A stretch of DNA of 21,672 nt. Source: a virus. The position numbers and the translations under genes are program-made. Below are positions 3,647-12,011 of this stretch, in pieces (the stretch's first letter is position 1; each line of letters opens with the position of its first letter). The stretch is from the IMG/VR virus record IMGVR_UViG_3300025082_000087, positions 1 through 21,672 of that record; one strand, given 5' to 3'. The notes beneath the pieces were generated by a model. The model made no database searches, was not told the origin of the DNA, and saw nothing but the letters and a program-made list of their open reading frames with translations.

Positions 3647-4249
3647 CTACGGAACGATGGTGCCGGCGGCCACAAGGGCGGCGTACTCGTTCTGCAGGCC
3701 CAGCTTCGTGAACGCCCACCCGGGGGCGCACTTGCTGGCGTCACGCTGGTCGATGAGGAAGATGCCGACCTTGTACTGGCCGGCCATGATGTGCTCGTGG
3801 GTGATGTCCGGTGCGTTGCCACCCTTGACGGTGCACTTGTCTGTGTCCCACACCTTCCAGTCGCCCGGGTTGTGGTACAGGGCGTCCTCCAACTTCTCCA
3901 CCATCGTGGACTTGTCGTGGATCGGCTTCGGGAGGCCCGGCTGGTGTACTGCGTCACCGGCGGCAGGTATGACCGGTGGCACGGCGACCGGGGCCGCCCC
4001 GGTAGGGGCGGTGAATGCCGCCTGGGCGAGGGCCACCGGGTCGGGAGCATTCACGGCAGGGGCTGCGGAGGGAGCGACACCTTCGTCAATCCCCGCCGTG
4101 TCCAGAATGATGTTGTAGACGGCCATGGCCGTCGCTGCGAACCGGCCGTTGTGGACGGCCCCCTCCCCCTGATCTTGGAGGAGCGAGGTGGCGATGTAGG
4201 CAGAGACCTGGGCGATGATCGTCCGGTCTTTGAGTGTGACGGTTTCCAT
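3647..4249 (-). CDS. Unknown protein between Cas4-like nuclease and helicase; single-strand-binding role possible
   Basis: 200 aa with ATG at 4249 and a purine-rich AAGAAAG upstream. Three parts are visible: a helical N-terminus (1-50), an Ala/Pro-rich linker (about 55-105), and a compact C-terminal domain (about 110-200) with W-K-V-W-D-T-D-K-C, V-G-I-F-L-I-D-Q-R-D and W-A-F-T-K-L-G. I do not recognise the fold. Actinophage replication modules often place a single-stranded-DNA-binding protein between a Cas4-type nuclease and a helicase, so that role is a contextual guess. The stop is TAG in frame with the helicase. Confidence 0.66.
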   Translation of the reverse strand: METVTLKDRTIIAQVSAYIATSLLQDQGEGAVHNGRFAATAMAVYNIILDTAGIDEGVAPSAAPAVNAPDPVALAQAAFTAPTGAAPVAVPPVIPAAGDAVHQPGLPKPIHDKSTMVEKLEDALYHNPGDWKVWDTDKCTVKGGNAPDITHEHIMAGQYKVGIFLIDQRDASKCAPGWAFTKLGLQNEYAALVAAGTIVP

Positions 4250-5870: not shown

Positions 5871-6596
5871 TTACAGGCCCTCGGTCCACAGCACCCACGC
5901 CCAGGTCTGCTCGGTGACCACACCGGTGGCCGGACCGAGCCACGGGGCGATGAAAGCTTGCACGGCGAGTAGCCGCTGCTCTGTCATAGGACCAAACTTT
6001 CCATCGGCGGCGATGTCCGGGCCTAGGGCACGTTGGAGGCGGGCCACGTCGGTGCCGGTGGCCCCACGTCTGAGAACCGTTGGCAGTGCGGGGCCTCGGA
6101 GTGCCGGGTCAGAGCCCGGTTCTAGGGCACCGTCGGCAAGCAGGCCACGGAGCAGATCCCCGGGGCACGACGTTGCCTTCACCTGCGAGTGCGGGACGAT
6201 GTCGAGGGCGCCGGGCCACTGCCGGCGGGCCAGAGCGACAGCCCGGGCGATGCCGTCGACCATCGGTTCCGGGATCGGTTGGCCGGGCCCGACGAGGGCC
6301 ACGATGGCGACGTACCGGCGGTTCAAGATACGGCCACCCTGGGCCCCGGACTCGATGTCGAGGCCACGGCAGGCCCACACCTCGCCAGCCTGATCGACGG
6401 CGAGGTTGTAAGCGATGTCCCACCAGCCGAGCCGGTCGATGTGCCCGGTCTGGATGGATCGGAGCAGGGCATCGGTCGGCCGGGTCGGGTCGATGGCGAA
6501 CCCGGCATAGTGGACGCAGACGCCCTTGACGTGGGCCGCTACGAGGCGGCGGGTCTTTACCGGGGGGCGTGCTCGCCAGTCTGATCTCGTGTGCAT
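5871..6596 (-). CDS. Endolysin: N-acetylmuramoyl-L-alanine amidase with peptidoglycan-binding domain
   Basis: 241 aa from the ATG at 6596, chosen because AAGG lies eight bases upstream; a GTG at 6605 would add three residues. The catalytic domain (about 20-150) is of the amidase_2/PGRP type, with zinc ligands His29 (V-H-Y-A-G-F), His136 (V-P-H-S) and Cys144 (T-S-C-P-G-D), and the conserved W-W-D-I-A-Y-N segment. Residues about 170-235 form a PG_binding_1 domain (L-R-R-G-A-T-G-T-D-V-A-R-L-Q, then D-G-K-F-G-P-M-T-E). It cleaves the bond between muramic acid and the stem peptide to lyse the host. There is no signal peptide, so a holin must let it out. The putative holin gene stops one base before the GTG alternative. 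Confidence 0.88.
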   Translation of the reverse strand: MHTRSDWRARPPVKTRRLVAAHVKGVCVHYAGFAIDPTRPTDALLRSIQTGHIDRLGWWDIAYNLAVDQAGEVWACRGLDIESGAQGGRILNRRYVAIVALVGPGQPIPEPMVDGIARAVALARRQWPGALDIVPHSQVKATSCPGDLLRGLLADGALEPGSDPALRGPALPTVLRRGATGTDVARLQRALGPDIAADGKFGPMTEQRLLAVQAFIAPWLGPATGVVTEQTWAWVLWTEGL

Positions 6597-7444: not shown

Positions 7445-7554
7445 GTATTGCTGTCCCCACCTGATGGTGGGGATCGTGGAGCAGCCGGGAGTCGAACCCG
7501 GGTGCCAGAGGGTCCGCATGCGGCGATTACTCTGGTCGATACCTTTCCTGCCCC
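7445..7554 (-). ncRNA. tRNA-like intergenic RNA element, copy 1 (long form)
   Basis: GGGGCAG (7554-7548) pairs with CTGCTCC (7484-7478), like a 7-bp acceptor stem. Directly before the 3' strand sits a perfect T-arm, CCGGG-TTCGACT-CCCGG (7501-7485). Between them lies a 45-base insert with a CCAGAG/CTCTGG hairpin but no convincing anticodon arm. After the stem come ACGAT, a 7-bp hairpin with loop ATCA (7472-7455) and ACAGCAATAC, all shared with copies 2-4. It is not a functional tRNA as far as I can see; it is a structural relative or mimic. Confidence 0.6.
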
Positions 7555-8205: not shown

Positions 8206-8280
8206 GGTATTGCTGTCCAGAGCGGATGCTCTGGATCGTCCCAGCCCGGGGCTCGCACCCGGGTGCCTGCTGGTCTGGGG
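8206..8280 (-). ncRNA. tRNA-like intergenic RNA element, copy 2
   Basis: CCCAG (8279-8275) pairs with CTGGG (8244-8240). Directly before the 3' strand is CCCGGG-TGCGAGC-CCCGGG (8263-8245), a 7-base-loop hairpin with T54, C56 and A58 in T-loop positions. Then come ACGAT (8239-8235), hairpin CCAGAGC-ATCC-GCTCTGG (8234-8217) and ACAGCAATACC. The stem sequences differ from copies 3 and 4 but the pairing is kept. Confidence 0.6.
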
Positions 8281-8286
8281 TGGGGG

Positions 8287-8805
8287 TCAGGCGTAGTGCT
8301 GACCTCCAACGGTCTGGTCGAAGCCGACGATCCGCTCTGCGGTGGCGTAAGCCGTGAAGGCCGCCCCGGGACGGTTAGCGCCATGGTCCTCGATCCACTT
8401 GGTCGCAGCATCGTTCGCCTGCTCGGCGTGCTCGTCCCAGTACGGGCTGTCCGGGATCTCGAAGACCGCCACCAGATCGCAGCGGATCCAGGTCCAGCCG
8501 CCCTCCTCAGGTCCGCCGCCCCCATGGGAGGTGGCGTACACGGAGACGACTTTGGCGTTGGCGTAGAGGAACTGGTGGACTTCCACCGGTTCGGCGAATG
8601 CCCATTTGCAGTACTCGCCGTCGATGTGGTGGTCAGGATTGGAAACCACCTCGATCACCGGGATGTAGCAGCCGGTCGCCCGTAGTGGCAGGAGTTGCTC
8701 AGGTAGCACCGGCAGGAAGTGGTCCTCGTCGGCCCTGAACCAACGGCCTGCCCGGACCACGGCCTCGATGAGGTCATGGTTGGTCTTGAAGTTTTCGTTG
8801 ATCAT
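8287..8805 (-). CDS. Hypothetical protein, 172 aa
   Basis: ATG at 8805 with GAGGAGAG seven bases upstream. It is a soluble mixed alpha/beta protein, with R-W-F-R-A-D-E-D-H-F, C-Y-I-P-V-I-E-V-V, W-T-W-I-R-C-D-L-V-A-V-F-E-I and a helical C-terminal third around E-H-A-E-Q-A-N-D-A-A-T-K-W-I. A Gly run (H-G-G-G-G-P-E-E-G-G) forms a loop. No family recognised. It ends six bases before tRNA-like copy 2. Confidence 0.66.
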   Translation of the reverse strand: MINENFKTNHDLIEAVVRAGRWFRADEDHFLPVLPEQLLPLRATGCYIPVIEVVSNPDHHIDGEYCKWAFAEPVEVHQFLYANAKVVSVYATSHGGGGPEEGGWTWIRCDLVAVFEIPDSPYWDEHAEQANDAATKWIEDHGANRPGAAFTAYATAERIVGFDQTVGGQHYA

Positions 8806-8820: not shown

Positions 8821-8902
8821 GGTATTACTGTCCCCACCTGATGGTGGGAATCGTCCCCTGCCCCGTCTCGCTCGGGGTGCTCGGCCAATGCCGAGTCAGG
8901 GG
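8821..8902 (-). ncRNA. tRNA-like intergenic RNA element, copy 3
   Basis: CCCCTG (8902-8897) pairs with CAGGGG (8860-8855). Inside are CTCGGC-ATTG-GCCGAG and, abutting the 3' strand, CCCCG-AGCGAGA-CGGGG, the T-arm equivalent. ACGAT (8854-8850), a hairpin with loop ATCA (about 8849-8832) and ACAGTAATACC follow. Its first 53 bases are identical to copy 4, while the last hairpin matches copy 1 instead. It starts six bases after the stop of the upstream gene. Confidence 0.62.
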
Positions 8903-8908
8903 TGAGGA

Positions 8909-9364
8909 CTAGTCCTCAGTGAGGAAGTGCCGGAACACGTTCCCCAGTTCGGTTGCGTCGACACTCCAGATGGTCTGGTACCAGTCGGTGTCGGCGACGC
9001 CGACCCGGGCTTCGGGCCGGACGGTCAAACGGAACCCGTCGACCTGCTGATCGACAAGGGCCACGTCTTCGGCGTCACCGGACTTCTTGTACCGCTCATC
9101 CCAGTCAGCCAGTTCCACGAGCCGGAGGGCCGCAGGGAGACTGACGAGCGATGAGCAGAGCAAGACGTCCGAGTCGTCATAGACCCGGACGACGGCGGAG
9201 CCACGGCCAGAGACACTGACCGTCCCGATGACGTTGGGCATCCACATGGAGGTCCCCAACTTCTTGTCCAGTACCTCGACAAACACGTCGATGGTCCGGG
9301 CCATCTTGTCGATGAATGTCTGGGTGCCGTCGGCCCAGTTATCTACGGCGGATGTTGCATTCAT
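8909..9364 (-). CDS. Hypothetical protein, 151 aa
   Basis: ATG at 9364 with GAGGAGAG six bases upstream. A helical N-terminus (F-I-D-K-M-A-R-T-I-D-V-F-V-E-V-L) is followed by a strand-rich middle (V-I-G-T-V-S-V-S-G-R-G-S-A-V-V-R-V-Y) and a C-terminus with W-Y-Q-T-I-W-S-V. It has an acidic, soluble appearance. No family recognised. Confidence 0.66.
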   Translation of the reverse strand: MNATSAVDNWADGTQTFIDKMARTIDVFVEVLDKKLGTSMWMPNVIGTVSVSGRGSAVVRVYDDSDVLLCSSLVSLPAALRLVELADWDERYKKSGDAEDVALVDQQVDGFRLTVRPEARVGVADTDWYQTIWSVDATELGNVFRHFLTED

Positions 9365-9379: not shown

Positions 9380-9461
9380 GGTATTGCTGCCACGGGCTGG
9401 TGCCCGTGATCGTCCCCTGCCCCGTCTCGCTCGGGGTGCTCGGCCAATGCCGAGTCAGGGG
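9380..9461 (-). ncRNA. tRNA-like intergenic RNA element, copy 4
   Basis: CCCCTG (9461-9456) pairs with CAGGGG (9419-9414), with the same two inner hairpins as copy 3. ACGAT (9413-9409) is followed by CACGGGC-ACCA-GCCCGTG (9408-9391), a different sequence from copy 3 that keeps a 7-bp stem and 4-base loop. It ends GCAGCAATACC and leads to the GAGGAGAG leader. Confidence 0.62.
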
Positions 9462-9466
9462 TCGCC

Positions 9467-9688
9467 TCATACGAGGCCAGCGTCGATGTCAGCCCGGTAC
9501 CCGTCATCGTCTCGGGTCAACTCGTTGAAGTCGCCACATACGTCGGCTGCCTCAAACACTTCACGACGCTTCTCGTACTCGTCGGAATCGATCTCGAATC
9601 CGAACTCTGCACGCTCGTCCTCGCCGTGGCCTTGGCAGAAGTCGATGACATCGCCGCAGTAACCACAACGACTAATGATCTCATTCAT
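9467..9688 (-). CDS. Small acidic zinc-ribbon-like protein, 73 aa
   Basis: ATG at 9688 with GAGGAGAG six bases upstream. The N-terminus reads R-C-G-Y-C-G-D-V-I-D-F-C-Q-G-H-G, a C-x-x-C...C-x-x-H pattern able to bind one zinc. The rest is very acidic (D-S-D-E-Y-E-K-R-R-E-V-F-E-A-A). It may be a nucleic-acid mimic or protein-interaction factor; function unknown. Confidence 0.64.
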   Translation of the reverse strand: MNEIISRCGYCGDVIDFCQGHGEDERAEFGFEIDSDEYEKRREVFEAADVCGDFNELTRDDDGYRADIDAGLV

Positions 9689-9715
9689 GGTTCTCTCCTC
9701 GTTGGTTGGTTGTGC

Positions 9716-9778
9716 CCAGTCTCATCAGGACGGGTAGGGCAGTTCCCGTCGACCCCCCTGGAGGGGGGTTTCGACTAG
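9716..9778 (-). ncRNA. Type II hammerhead ribozyme, copy 5
   Basis: Core CTGATGA is at 9728-9722 and GAAA at 9772-9769. Helix III is A-CCCCCC/GGGGGG-U (9769-9763 with 9758-9752, loop TCCA). The GUC triplet ends at 9751, so the predicted cut is between 9751 and 9750. Helix I is GACGGG/CCCGTC (9750-9745 with 9734-9729, ten-base loop). Helix II is six pairs (9721-9716 with 9773-9778, one G-U) and includes the TAG stop of the upstream gene (9777-9775). All invariant hammerhead bases are present. Confidence 0.88.
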
Positions 9779-10215
9779 CCGTAAATGACCTCGCCGAAAA
9801 TGGCTGCCTGCACGATCATGTCGGCAGTACCGGCGTCCAGCATGTCCTCGAAGTCGGCGAACATGGTGAACCCGGAGGCCACCACAGTCGACAATGCGTA
9901 AGACAGTCTGGCGTGCTCGGACCGGGGGTGAATGCGGTGCTCTTCCCGGTACTCGTCAGTCTCACCGGCGAGTTCCTTCATGCCCCGCTGGATGGTCTCA
10001 CGATCGACCCGGTGGCCGATGCTGTCGTTGACGTCGCCGACCCCATACCGGTCGACGTACTCCTCCCAAGGGAGGTCGGCGGTGGCAACGAGGGTGGCGT
10101 ACCAGCCCTCATGGCCGACGGAAGGCCGGTACTCGGCGACCTGCGCCCAGTACTGGACCCCACCTTCGATAGCGGTCGTAAACACGTCATATTCAATATC
10201 AGTGTTCCTGTTCAT
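9775..10215 (-). CDS. Hypothetical protein, 146 aa
   Basis: ATG at 10215 with GAGGAGAG six bases upstream. It has strands near the N-terminus (Y-D-V-F-T-T-A-I and Y-W-A-Q-V-A-E-Y), W-Y-A-T-L-V-A-T-A and a helical C-terminal half (E-T-I-Q-R-G-M-K-E-L-A-G-E-T). The organisation resembles small early proteins of actinophages, but no function is assigned. Its TAG stop lies inside helix II of the hammerhead at 9716-9778, so terminating ribosomes would cover that helix. Confidence 0.68.
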   Translation of the reverse strand: MNRNTDIEYDVFTTAIEGGVQYWAQVAEYRPSVGHEGWYATLVATADLPWEEYVDRYGVGDVNDSIGHRVDRETIQRGMKELAGETDEYREEHRIHPRSEHARLSYALSTVVASGFTMFADFEDMLDAGTADMIVQAAIFGEVIYG

Positions 10216-10242
10216 GGTTCTCTCCTCGTTGGTTGTTGGGTT

Positions 10243-10299
10243 GTCTCTTCAGCACCCGGGAACCCATCCCAGATGGACCGCCCAGAGGGCGGTTTCGAC
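10243..10299 (-). ncRNA. Type II hammerhead ribozyme, copy 4
   Basis: Core CTGAAGA (10252-10246) has A at the variable position 7; GAAA is at 10296-10293. Helix III is A-CCGCCC/GGGCGG-U with loop TCT. The predicted cut is between 10276 and 10275, after C17. Helix I is CATCTGGG/CCCGGGTG (10275-10268 with 10260-10253), eight pairs including two G-U, with loop ATGGGTT. Helix II is three pairs, GAC/GTC (10245-10243 with 10297-10299). Confidence 0.82.
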
Positions 10300-10303
10300 T
10301 TGA

Positions 10304-10651
10304 TCAGCCGCTGCCGGAGCACCACTTGCCCGTCGTCTTGTTGTAGATCGCCCCGGCGGTGGGGTGATCCTTCGACGTGCAGACGGCGTGAAACATGCAC
10401 CCCAGAGGGCCTTCGACGTCGTTGCCGACGGGGTGACCCCAAGCCTTGTCAAACTCGAGGCTCGCCGTAAGTCGCTCGATCAGGGCCCGGCGGACGTCAG
10501 CCCACTCGGACACCGAAATGTCATGCTCTCCGGCATTGACGGTCACCTCATCGAGGTACCCATGGATGACGTCCACCAGTTCCTCTGCGACGGCGTCCAC
10601 GCCCTCGTCAGTGCCGAGATCGGTCTCGTGCAAAATGTTGTAGTTCGGCAT
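10304..10651 (-). CDS. Hypothetical protein, 115 aa
   Basis: ATG at 10651, with GAGGAG upstream in the usual leader. The frame continues upstream through the ribozyme, but that part is not coding in the sister genes. It is an acidic helical protein in the first two thirds (V-D-A-V-A-E-E-L-V-D-V-I-H-G-Y-L), with C-M-F-H-A-V-C and K-W-C-S-G-S-G near the end, possibly a Cys cluster. No family recognised. Confidence 0.66.
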   Translation of the reverse strand: MPNYNILHETDLGTDEGVDAVAEELVDVIHGYLDEVTVNAGEHDISVSEWADVRRALIERLTASLEFDKAWGHPVGNDVEGPLGCMFHAVCTSKDHPTAGAIYNKTTGKWCSGSG

Positions 10652-10676
10652 ATCTGTCTCTCCTCGTTGTTGGTTG

Positions 10677-10741
10677 GCTTGTCTCATCAGTGGGTGGGTA
10701 GCCATCCCATCCCAGACCCCCCGGAGGGGGTTTCGACTAGC
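10677..10741 (-). ncRNA. Type II hammerhead ribozyme, copy 3
   Basis: Core CTGATGA is at 10690-10684 and GAAA at 10734-10731. Helix III is A-CCCCC/GGGGG-U with a four-base loop. The cut is predicted between 10715 and 10714. Helix I is TGGG/CCCA, a bulged A, then TGGG/CCCA, with loop ATGGCTA (10714-10691). Helix II is GAC/GTC, an A-A mismatch, then AGC/GCT (10683-10677 with 10735-10741). Confidence 0.87.
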
Positions 10742-10743
10742 GG

Positions 10744-11226
10744 TCAGAAACGCTCGTCAGGGTCACAACGCTCGACCTTGACCAACTCATCGATGACCGC
10801 CCGGACCGTGTCCTCGTGGATCGTCCGGCAGTCCATGGTCGGGCTGTAGAACGACGGCACTAGGTAGACCCAGTAGCCCTCGTCGCCATCGTCCGGGTCG
10901 CTGGTCGAACCGACCCGAGGGTCGGCCTGAACCTGCGCCCAGGTCCGAGGCTTCGTGGTCGGCACCTGAATGGTGACGCAGCCGTCGCAGACCCGCCACT
11001 CAGTCTGGTAACCCTCAGGGTCGACGGTGACCTCGACGATGTCCTCGTCGAACGGAATGTCCTCGCCGCACCGGTCACACTCAAAGACCGATCCCAAGCA
11101 CTCGATGCACTTGAACCCGTCGGCGAATGGGAGCCGATTGACCCACCGGCCGAAACCGGGTGCCGTCTCCTCGCCACACTCGACACACGGTTCTATTCTG
11201 TCGCTGGTTGTTGTGTTCTCGCTCAT
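10744..11226 (-). CDS. Protein with four CxxC motifs, probable double zinc ribbon, 160 aa
   Basis: The ATG at 11226 has GAGGAGAG six bases upstream; the frame is open further up through the ribozyme but is not coding there. Four C-x-x-C pairs lie in the first 85 residues: C-V-E-C-G, C-I-E-C-L, C-D-R-C-G and C-D-G-C-V. This is enough for two zinc ions. The remainder is acidic, with a Y-W-V-Y-L-V-P-S-F-Y strand and a C-terminal helix (V-R-A-V-I-D-E-L-V-K-V). A nucleic-acid or protein adaptor role is likely. Exact function unknown. Confidence 0.72.
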   Translation of the reverse strand: MSENTTTSDRIEPCVECGEETAPGFGRWVNRLPFADGFKCIECLGSVFECDRCGEDIPFDEDIVEVTVDPEGYQTEWRVCDGCVTIQVPTTKPRTWAQVQADPRVGSTSDPDDGDEGYWVYLVPSFYSPTMDCRTIHEDTVRAVIDELVKVERCDPDERF

Positions 11227-11247
11227 GGTTCTCTCCTCGTTTGGGCC

Positions 11248-11304
11248 TGCCTCATCAGGGCGGGGACGGCCAGTCCCCCACCGACCCCCGAAGGGGTTTC
11301 GGCA
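11248..11304 (-). ncRNA. Type II hammerhead ribozyme, copy 2, with covarying helix II
   Basis: Core CTGATGA is at 11258-11252 and GAAA at 11300-11297. Helix III is A-CCCC/GGGG-U capped by a UUCG tetraloop. The cut is predicted between 11283 and 11282. Helix I is GGTGGGG/CCCCGCC (11282-11276 with 11265-11259, one G-U). Helix II is GGCA/TGCC (11251-11248 with 11301-11304), where the other type II copies have GAC/GTC, so the second base pair has changed on both sides. Confidence 0.88.
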
Positions 11305-11305
11305 T

Positions 11306-11602
11306 TCAGAATCCAAACTCCTGCTTGGCCTGAGCCATCAGTGCTGCGGCCTCCAACTCGGCCTCGTCGACAGCGATCAGGATGTTGTCCGCATCCCACA
11401 CGTCGCCGACCTGACAGCCGTCAAAGTCACCGACCTTCGCACCTTCGGCATTGCCATCGAAGTCGACTAGGAAGTCGACCCACGACTGGGTGACGTAAGC
11501 CACCAGCCAGAGCGTGTTGTTCTCGTCCAGCCCGTAGGTGTTGCCACCGGCGAAGGAATCGTAATGCTTCGGCTTGATCTTCCAGTTCGGTTCGGTCTTC
11601 AT
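11306..11602 (-). CDS. Hypothetical protein, 98 aa
   Basis: ATG at 11602 with GAGGAGAG six bases upstream. It starts with a short basic segment (K-I-K-P-K-H-Y), then strand-like L-W-L-V-A-Y-V-T-Q-S-W-V-D-F-L-V-D-F and V-G-D-V-W, and ends in a helix E-A-E-L-E-A-A-A-L-M-A-Q-A-K. Small, soluble and acidic. No family recognised. Confidence 0.66.
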   Translation of the reverse strand: MKTEPNWKIKPKHYDSFAGGNTYGLDENNTLWLVAYVTQSWVDFLVDFDGNAEGAKVGDFDGCQVGDVWDADNILIAVDEAELEAAALMAQAKQEFGF

Positions 11603-11632
11603 GGTTCTCTCCTCGTTGTTGTTGATTGCCCT

Positions 11633-11686
11633 GTCTCATCAGTGGCAGGTGGGCAGTCCTGCCAGACCCCCGGAGGGGGTTTCGAC
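11633..11686 (-). ncRNA. Type II hammerhead ribozyme, copy 1
   Basis: Core CTGATGA is at 11642-11636 and GAAA at 11683-11680. Helix III is A-CCCCC/GGGGG-U with loop TCC. The cut is predicted between 11665 and 11664. Helix I is TGGCAGG/CCTGCCA (11664-11658 with 11649-11643), seven perfect pairs with an eight-base loop. Helix II is GAC/GTC (11635-11633 with 11684-11686). Confidence 0.87.
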
Positions 11687-11690
11687 TTGC

Positions 11691-11945
11691 TCAACCGGCG
11701 TGTCGGCTCGGGGCCGACGAAGCCGGTGCGTCCGGGTGGAAGCCGATGATCTCGCAGGCGTAATGGATCGTCGCCAGCCGGACCACGTCGTCGAAGTCGA
11801 CACCGTCTTGAGCGGCAAGGTGCCGCAGGTCGGTGACGAAGTCGACTATCGCCGTCTTCGGGTCCTCGTCGTAGCCGTCGTTGGCTTCGGCGTGCTCCCG
11901 GACGAACCAGTTGACTCGCTTGGCCTTCTGTAGGTCGCACTTCAT
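11691..11945 (-). CDS. Hypothetical protein, 84 aa, first gene of the accessory operon
   Basis: ATG at 11945. Its Shine-Dalgarno GAGGAG (11957-11952) is wholly inside helix III of the leader hammerhead. The protein is largely helical (A-K-R-V-N-W-F-V-R-E-H-A, then A-I-V-D-F-V-T-D-L-R-H-L-A-A and D-V-V-R-L-A-T-I-H-Y-A), with a small Ala/Pro/Ser-rich tail. No family recognised. Confidence 0.66.
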   Translation of the reverse strand: MKCDLQKAKRVNWFVREHAEANDGYDEDPKTAIVDFVTDLRHLAAQDGVDFDDVVRLATIHYACEIIGFHPDAPASSAPSRHAG

Positions 11946-11951
11946 GGTTCT

Positions 11952-12011
11952 CTCCTCGTTTCGACCTTGACTGAGGTCTCATCAGGGCCGCTGGCAGCGA
12001 CCGACGAGGAG
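11952..12011 (-). ncRNA. Type III hammerhead ribozyme in the operon leader, masking the first Shine-Dalgarno
   Basis: Core CTGATGA is at 11985-11979. Helix II is GACC/GGTC (11978-11975 with 11966-11963, eight-base loop). GAAA is at 11962-11959. Helix III is CTCCTCGT/ACGAGGAG (12011-12004 with 11959-11952), eight perfect pairs. The GUC triplet ends at 12003, with the cut predicted before 12002. Helix I is GGTCGC/GCGGCC (12002-11997 with 11991-11986, loop TGCCA). The permutation differs from the other five because the open end is helix III. Confidence 0.9.

Follow-up and report, generated by a model that had tools for sequence, protein, structure and literature searches.

Hammerhead ribozymes and tRNA-like elements in successive gene gaps of a phage operon

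What would become of a phage message if one gap after another between its genes held a self-cleaving ribozyme? The question is raised by an operon of small minus-strand genes (genes 1 to 9, listed in the last section) in the IMG/VR virus record IMGVR_UViG_3300025082_000087, whose 21,672 nt we analysed as a whole (hereafter, the window). A sequence-only reading had proposed a complete hammerhead in each of six gaps, from the operon leader to the sixth gene. Our own scan of both strands, which required a CUGANGA core, GAA, a UH cleavage site and three paired helices, recovered six hammerheads in the window and none elsewhere on either strand. They occupy the operon leader and the next five gaps, one per gap, and all lie on the minus strand. 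This orientation, and the division into five type II elements and one type III element, correct the earlier description. Dinucleotide-preserving shuffles of the window (n=200) contained a mean of 0.005 hammerheads, with a maximum of 1. The elements are as follows.

11952..12011 (-): type III hammerhead in the operon leader; own scan 12011-11952; predicted cut after 12003
11625..11687 (-): type II hammerhead in the gap before gene 2; 39.3 bits; scan match 11686-11633; predicted cut after 11665; pseudoknot UGCCC/GGGCA
11241..11304 (-): type II hammerhead in the gap before gene 3; 38.1 bits; scan match 11304-11248; predicted cut after 11283
10673..10738 (-): type II hammerhead in the gap before gene 4; 33.3 bits, below gathering; scan match 10737-10681; predicted cut after 10715
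10235..10300 (-): type II hammerhead in the gap before gene 5; 47.3 bits; scan match 10299-10243; predicted cut after 10276; pseudoknot UGGGUU/AACCCA
9704..9778 (-): type II hammerhead in the gap before gene 6; 34.7 bits, below gathering; scan match 9778-9716; predicted cut after 9751; pseudoknot UGCCC/GGGCA

The scan, the shuffles and Rfam together bear out the placement of a hammerhead in each of the six gaps: cmscan matched all five type II elements to Hammerhead_II (RF02276; 47.3, 39.3, 38.1, 34.7 and 33.3 bits; E values from 5e-7 to 2e-3). Core, GAA, cleavage site and three helices are present in the order claimed in 6/6, and the cleavage site is GUC in every case. Each element lies between a stop codon (or the leader) and a Shine-Dalgarno (SD)-ATG on the same strand, with its predicted cut 23-29 nt past the stop codon and 56-63 nt ahead of the next start. 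Helix I had been said to pair throughout; helices were found in all six elements, but 10737-10681 has an interruption in helix I. The copies differ in detail. Stem II is GCC/GGC in 11241..11304 and GUC/GAC in most others, the core of 10299-10243 reads CUGAAGA (position 7 is free), and the gene 5 stop codon falls inside stem II of 9704..9778.

In the leader element, stem III pairs CUCCUCGU with ACGAGGAG and contains the gene 1 SD, and translation of gene 1 may therefore be tied to cleavage. The same arrangement is kept in the relatives L129 and L209 and in L173. Stem I of the leader differs in L129 and L173 yet still pairs, in L129 through compensatory changes.

According to earlier work (PMC3088659), loop I of type II hammerheads pairs with the strand that follows stem II to give a pseudoknot. 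Four of the type II elements in the window have loop I pseudoknots of 4-6 pairs (UGCCC/GGGCA, GGCC/GGCC, UGGGUU/AACCCA and UGCCC/GGGCA), and in the fifth (10673..10738) we found UGGCU/AGCCA by eye. Of 241 unique type II sequences, 66% have at least four Watson-Crick pairs between loop I and the post-stem II strand; swapping the partners lowers this to 27% (maximum 36%). Judged by their sequences, the six elements are genuine hammerhead ribozymes in identity, and self-cleavage is predicted. One type II subclass, seen in L095, has stem II GGUC/GACC, a loop I like GUYAWGC and no Watson-Crick pseudoknot, and must rely on another tertiary contact.

tRNA-like elements in the following gaps

The hammerhead array ends where tRNA-like elements (TLEs) occupy the following gaps. 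None of the next four gaps (9461, 8902, 8279 and 7554, minus strand) holds a hammerhead; each carries a TLE instead. In the common plan, a short linker or side hairpin stands between an acceptor-like stem and a T-arm-like stem whose 7-nt loop reads NNCRANN; next come an ACGA tail and a separate hairpin.

9381..9461 (-): TLE with a 6-bp acceptor-like stem, side hairpin, 5-bp T-arm-like stem, 7-nt loop AGCGAGA, ACGA tail and hairpin
8821..8902 (-): TLE in the gap before gene 8
8211..8279 (-): TLE with a 5-bp acceptor, 6-bp T-arm and loop UGCGAGC
7445..7554 (-): tmRNA-like tRNA domain, followed by a hairpin as in the TLEs; Rfam tmRNA 44.5 bits (gathering 47)

Conservation of the fold was evaluated in several ways. 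Both L129 and L209 carry the same type of element as 8211..8279 in the same gap, with paired changes. A scanner for the TLE architecture returned 52 elements in 1.89 Mb and 0 in three shuffles; DNA-pattern matches in L196 and L203-L208, which have no matching fold, were attributed to chance and discarded. TLE arrays also occur in L197, L198, L199, L201 and L202, and L197 has five consecutive elements ~420-610 nt apart. Among 26 forty-nt examples, 9/11 pairs have changed on both sides, and the covariation score is 0.72 against 0.16 when shuffled and at most 0.20 when slid, a score reached by 0/500 shuffles. These pair counts cover the 40-nt ungapped class only, the 39-nt variants having been misaligned by MAFFT and left out. 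The set was partly chosen by pairing, which makes the figure of 100% paired circular; the evidence that counts is the diversity of pair types and the absence of hits in the shuffled control, and the false-positive rate from shuffles is the safer figure.

The last of the four elements, 7554-7474, has counterparts that score better against the tmRNA model (L209:8911-8830 (-), 58.0 bits; L197:2724-2804, 56.4 bits). Like tmRNA (RF00023) it has tRNA-like ends, with both acceptor and T-arm present. It differs from tmRNA in having no messenger part or tag and in its length of ~80 nt rather than ~370. No tag reading frame was found, the skipped part of the model corresponds to only 19 nt, and ARAGORN called no gene there.

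Known RNA classes fit the TLEs poorly. No Rfam family fitted, and ARAGORN reported no tRNA or tmRNA, and with them no full cloverleaf with an anticodon arm, either in the window or across 11 loci; the idea that the TLE gaps hold genuine tRNA or tmRNA genes was rejected on this ground. An HDV-like or theta ribozyme was likewise rejected, as inspection revealed no P2 partner, the catalytic C in J4/2 is changed to U at 8902, and Rfam gave no match. Twister, pistol and other known ribozymes had no Rfam match in these gaps. The best weak match to the TLEs at 9461 and 8902 is DUF2693-FD RNA (RF02926), which shares the plan of an acceptor-like stem and a 5-bp arm (7+5 bp) with a 7-nt AGCGAGA loop; the match is not significant (20.6 bits, gathering 44.5, E 2.4). 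Within the papers and families searched, the TLE family appears to be undescribed.

Arrays and cassettes in other phages

A pattern scan of IMG/VR for hammerheads returned at least 120 stretches. Among the viral contig matches listed, the largest arrays are those of L095 (10, comprising nine type II elements and a type III leader), L129 (8), and L020 and L073 (7). Across many unrelated loci we counted 308 hammerheads, against ~1 per shuffle. Placement is equally consistent: 86% of 229 type II elements from viral and genome loci sit between an ORF stop and the next SD-start, compared with 12% of random same-strand positions.

The window operon could also be aligned to gaps in cultured Streptomyces phages. 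Rfam Hammerhead_II matches number 12 in the early operon of Salutena, 14 in Jevington, 8 in Tefunt and 9 in Omar. When gaps of at least 60 nt are taken from the GenBank annotation, a hammerhead is present in 11/13 (Salutena), 12/13 (Jevington), 5/5 (Tefunt) and 6/7 (Omar). Where genes overlap or almost meet, a ribozyme is mostly lacking. A few ribozymes fall within annotated coding sequences, where start codons may have been annotated too far upstream. Phage R4 (L210) has nine hammerheads, all above the cut-off.

Three mini-genes annotated as hypothetical in R4, gp60.1, gp67.1 and gp75.1, coincide with hammerheads (3763-3846, 6126-6218 and 9074-9175) and are probably not protein genes. A single gap in Jevington (L193, 13664-13529) contains two type II hammerheads back to back. 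Omar (L195) has an Rfam bacterial 16S rRNA match within its genome at 12751-12634 (-) (68 bits, model positions 106-311).

Hammerheads and TLEs replace one another between sister phages. Members of Camvirus, a sister genus of Streptomyces phages (Endor1, phiScoe3 and Alsaber), have a related operon with 7-9 TLEs and no Rfam hammerheads. Genes with hammerheads on their flanks in R4, Jevington and Salutena have orthologues in Endor1 and phiScoe3 whose flanks carry TLEs. In one such pair, at 44% identity, the Jevington gene (L193:10532-11329) has hammerheads on both sides and the Endor1 gene (L211:10084-10719) has TLEs on both sides. Nearer to the window, L129 and L209 have a hammerhead directly before gene 8, where the window has a TLE.

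Comparison with L209 further reveals what is gained and lost. There the order runs gene 3, ribozyme, gene 5, with gene 4 absent, and further on a ribozyme stands directly before gene 8. The L209 ribozymes are near-identical to those that follow genes 3 and 5 in the window. Relative to L209, the window has gene 4 with a ribozyme, gene 6 with a TLE and gene 7 with a TLE in addition. Because the two differ by whole cassettes, the unit of gain and loss appears to be a gene together with the element behind it.

Cutting as punctuation, and its rivals

Judged from sequence, it is quite likely that the hammerheads act as mRNA punctuation, that the downstream gaps are served likewise by TLEs, which are probably cut by RNase P, and that one long message is thus divided into single-gene messages. 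The main argument for cutting after each gene is that both element types are predicted RNA cutting marks at the same position. Cleavage at GUC|, immediately past the stem III hairpin of each ribozyme, would divide a single long minus-strand transcript. Each gene would then lie on a separate mRNA, whose 5' end, ~60 nt ahead of the start codon, has a 5'-OH and the stem I hairpin, and whose 3' end, ~25 nt past the stop codon, is the stem III hairpin bearing a 2',3'-cyclic phosphate. TLE gaps would do the same job, with host RNase P probably cutting on the 5' side of the element, and overlapping genes would escape cutting and remain coupled. Since a gene and the element that follows it form one cassette, a gained gene would come already insulated. 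Effects on stability and translation would be expected if the message is cut in the cell. A broader proposal, which may as easily prove wrong as right, is that actinobacterial phages possess a modular punctuation code built from cassettes of a gene plus a cutting element, in which the hammerhead and the minimal TLE cut by RNase P, unrelated to each other, are interchangeable at orthologous gaps and sister genera have replaced one type by the other over most of an operon.

The idea has precedents. In mitochondria, tRNAs serve as punctuation in transcripts. There, as in mRNA cutting by RNase P, tRNA-like structures mark cut sites between genes; the window TLEs have no anticodon arm and are not tRNAs, and their cleavage is predicted. 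RNase P processes pre-tmRNA, polycistronic mRNA and phage RNA (PMC11143913), the polycistronic case being that of Li and Altman (2003) as cited there. The sequence-only reading knew of no description of such a serial array. Clustered hammerheads in phages and prophages were in fact reported in 2011, and single-gene processing is not a new idea, because Perreault et al. had then already proposed it (PMC3088659). Tandem phage hammerheads of this kind cut both in vitro and in E. coli (PMC3088659). Their clusters resemble ours in that hammerheads, of type II and others, border single genes or blocks, and in the loop I pseudoknot. The sets tested in 2011 were tandem groups, of which a triple is the largest named; the present arrays have one element per gap over 6-14 gaps. 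The SD-holding type III leader, the occurrence in cultured Streptomyces phages and the alternation with TLEs go beyond that work. The window type II elements share core, topology and stem order with Rfam RF02276, a family definition that does not extend to long single-operon arrays. Theta ribozymes beside phage tRNAs are likewise self-cleaving and proposed to act in phage RNA maturation, but have an HDV-like fold at tRNA 3' ends (PMC10879173), whereas the window hammerheads lie between protein genes. A 2017 review still called the role of phage and prokaryotic hammerheads an open question (PMC6155905). In the open-access papers searched, we found no description of hammerheads in Streptomyces phages or actinobacteriophages, nor of arrays with this length and regularity, of such arrays in cultured Streptomyces phages or of exchange with TLEs.

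Several results weigh against punctuation by cutting. The Rfam scan that the sequence-only reading had suggested as a check gave a mixed answer: 3/5 type II elements pass the Hammerhead_II gathering score of 37, the other two score 33-35, and the leader matches Hammerhead_3 weakly in a focused search (22.1 bits, gathering 48.5, E 0.008). Because of this weak match, the type III identity of the leader rests on core, helices, fold and conservation. In single-strand folding, a model that does not include the pseudoknot, the full hammerhead is the minimum-energy structure for only 3/6. RNase P cleavage of the TLEs is not assured, because their stacked pairs number 11 instead of 12 and they carry ACGA or ACU in place of CCA. 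Finally, a scan for a sigma-70-type promoter upstream of the operon found none, and transcription as a single unit is therefore an assumption from gene order.

The shortfall in Rfam scores might be taken as a sign of chance matches or inactive relics, a view that is scarcely credible beside six elements against 0.005 expected, full cores, covariation and recurrence at many unrelated loci (308 vs ~1 per shuffle). If the ribozymes chiefly set mRNA lifetime, the 5'-OH and end hairpins would shield the pieces from 5'-end-dependent RNases and 3' exonucleases, and single-gene units would be a by-product. Type II topology does place a hairpin at both new ends, and the predicted cut leaves one of them, stem III, ~25 nt past each stop codon. 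This account, which is possible though we lean away from it, is compatible with punctuation and not opposed to it; alone, however, it does not account for exchange with TLEs, whose cut would give a 5' phosphate.

Alternatively, the elements could be mere passengers when genes move: structured spacers that recur and are retained as sites of recombination at which small phage genes are gained or lost, cleavage being incidental. The gain and loss of cassettes and the near-identical ribozymes at different loci would suit this explanation, but compensatory changes keep helices and pseudoknots despite sequence divergence, which argues for selection on the RNA fold and not on DNA identity, and both strand and stop-start placement are constrained; we consider it improbable. 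Cleavage followed by re-ligation could also generate circular or rearranged phage RNAs, as tandem hammerheads can yield circles in other systems, among them retrozymes and viroid-like RNAs. Each unit in the window, however, has an ORF with its own ribosome-binding site, and Perreault et al. saw neither spliced nor circular products when they looked for them with tandem phage hammerheads (PMC3088659), which leaves this outcome very improbable. If punctuation by cutting is correct, such phage operons need not count as polycistronic mRNAs, and some annotated mini-genes of R4 would be ribozymes. With arrays in named, cultured phages whose hosts are laboratory Streptomyces, and with sister phages that carry the other element in the same gaps, it is directly testable.

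Genes and source of the operon

The minus-strand operon starts downstream of 12.1 kb, and each of its genes has a ribosome-binding site resembling CGAGGAGAG. Pfam gave no matches for the operon genes, and their PHROGs matches are of unknown function.

11691..11945 (-): gene 1, 84 aa, phrog_3963, unknown function
11306..11602 (-): gene 2, 98 aa, no family match
10744..11226 (-): gene 3, 160 aa, phrog_35699
10304..10651 (-): gene 4, 115 aa, no family match; not present between genes 3 and 5 in L209
9775..10215 (-): gene 5, 146 aa, phrog_2355
9467..9688 (-): gene 6, 73 aa
8909..9364 (-): gene 7, 151 aa, no family match
8287..8805 (-): gene 8, 172 aa
7741..8190 (-): gene 9, 149 aa, phrog_4239

A strong hairpin followed by TTTCTGTTTT at 6897-6833 (-) is likely an intrinsic terminator closing the operon. 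Genes for TerL, portal, helicase and endolysin elsewhere in the window identify a tailed phage. The nearest relatives of its TerL are viral contigs (43-100% identity), and Streptomyces phages are distant (~29%). L173, a contig from an Acidimicrobiaceae metagenome-assembled genome, encodes a type III leader, four type II hammerheads, a tRNA-like element and a distant homologue of gene 8, which hints at an actinobacterial host for the phage group of the window.

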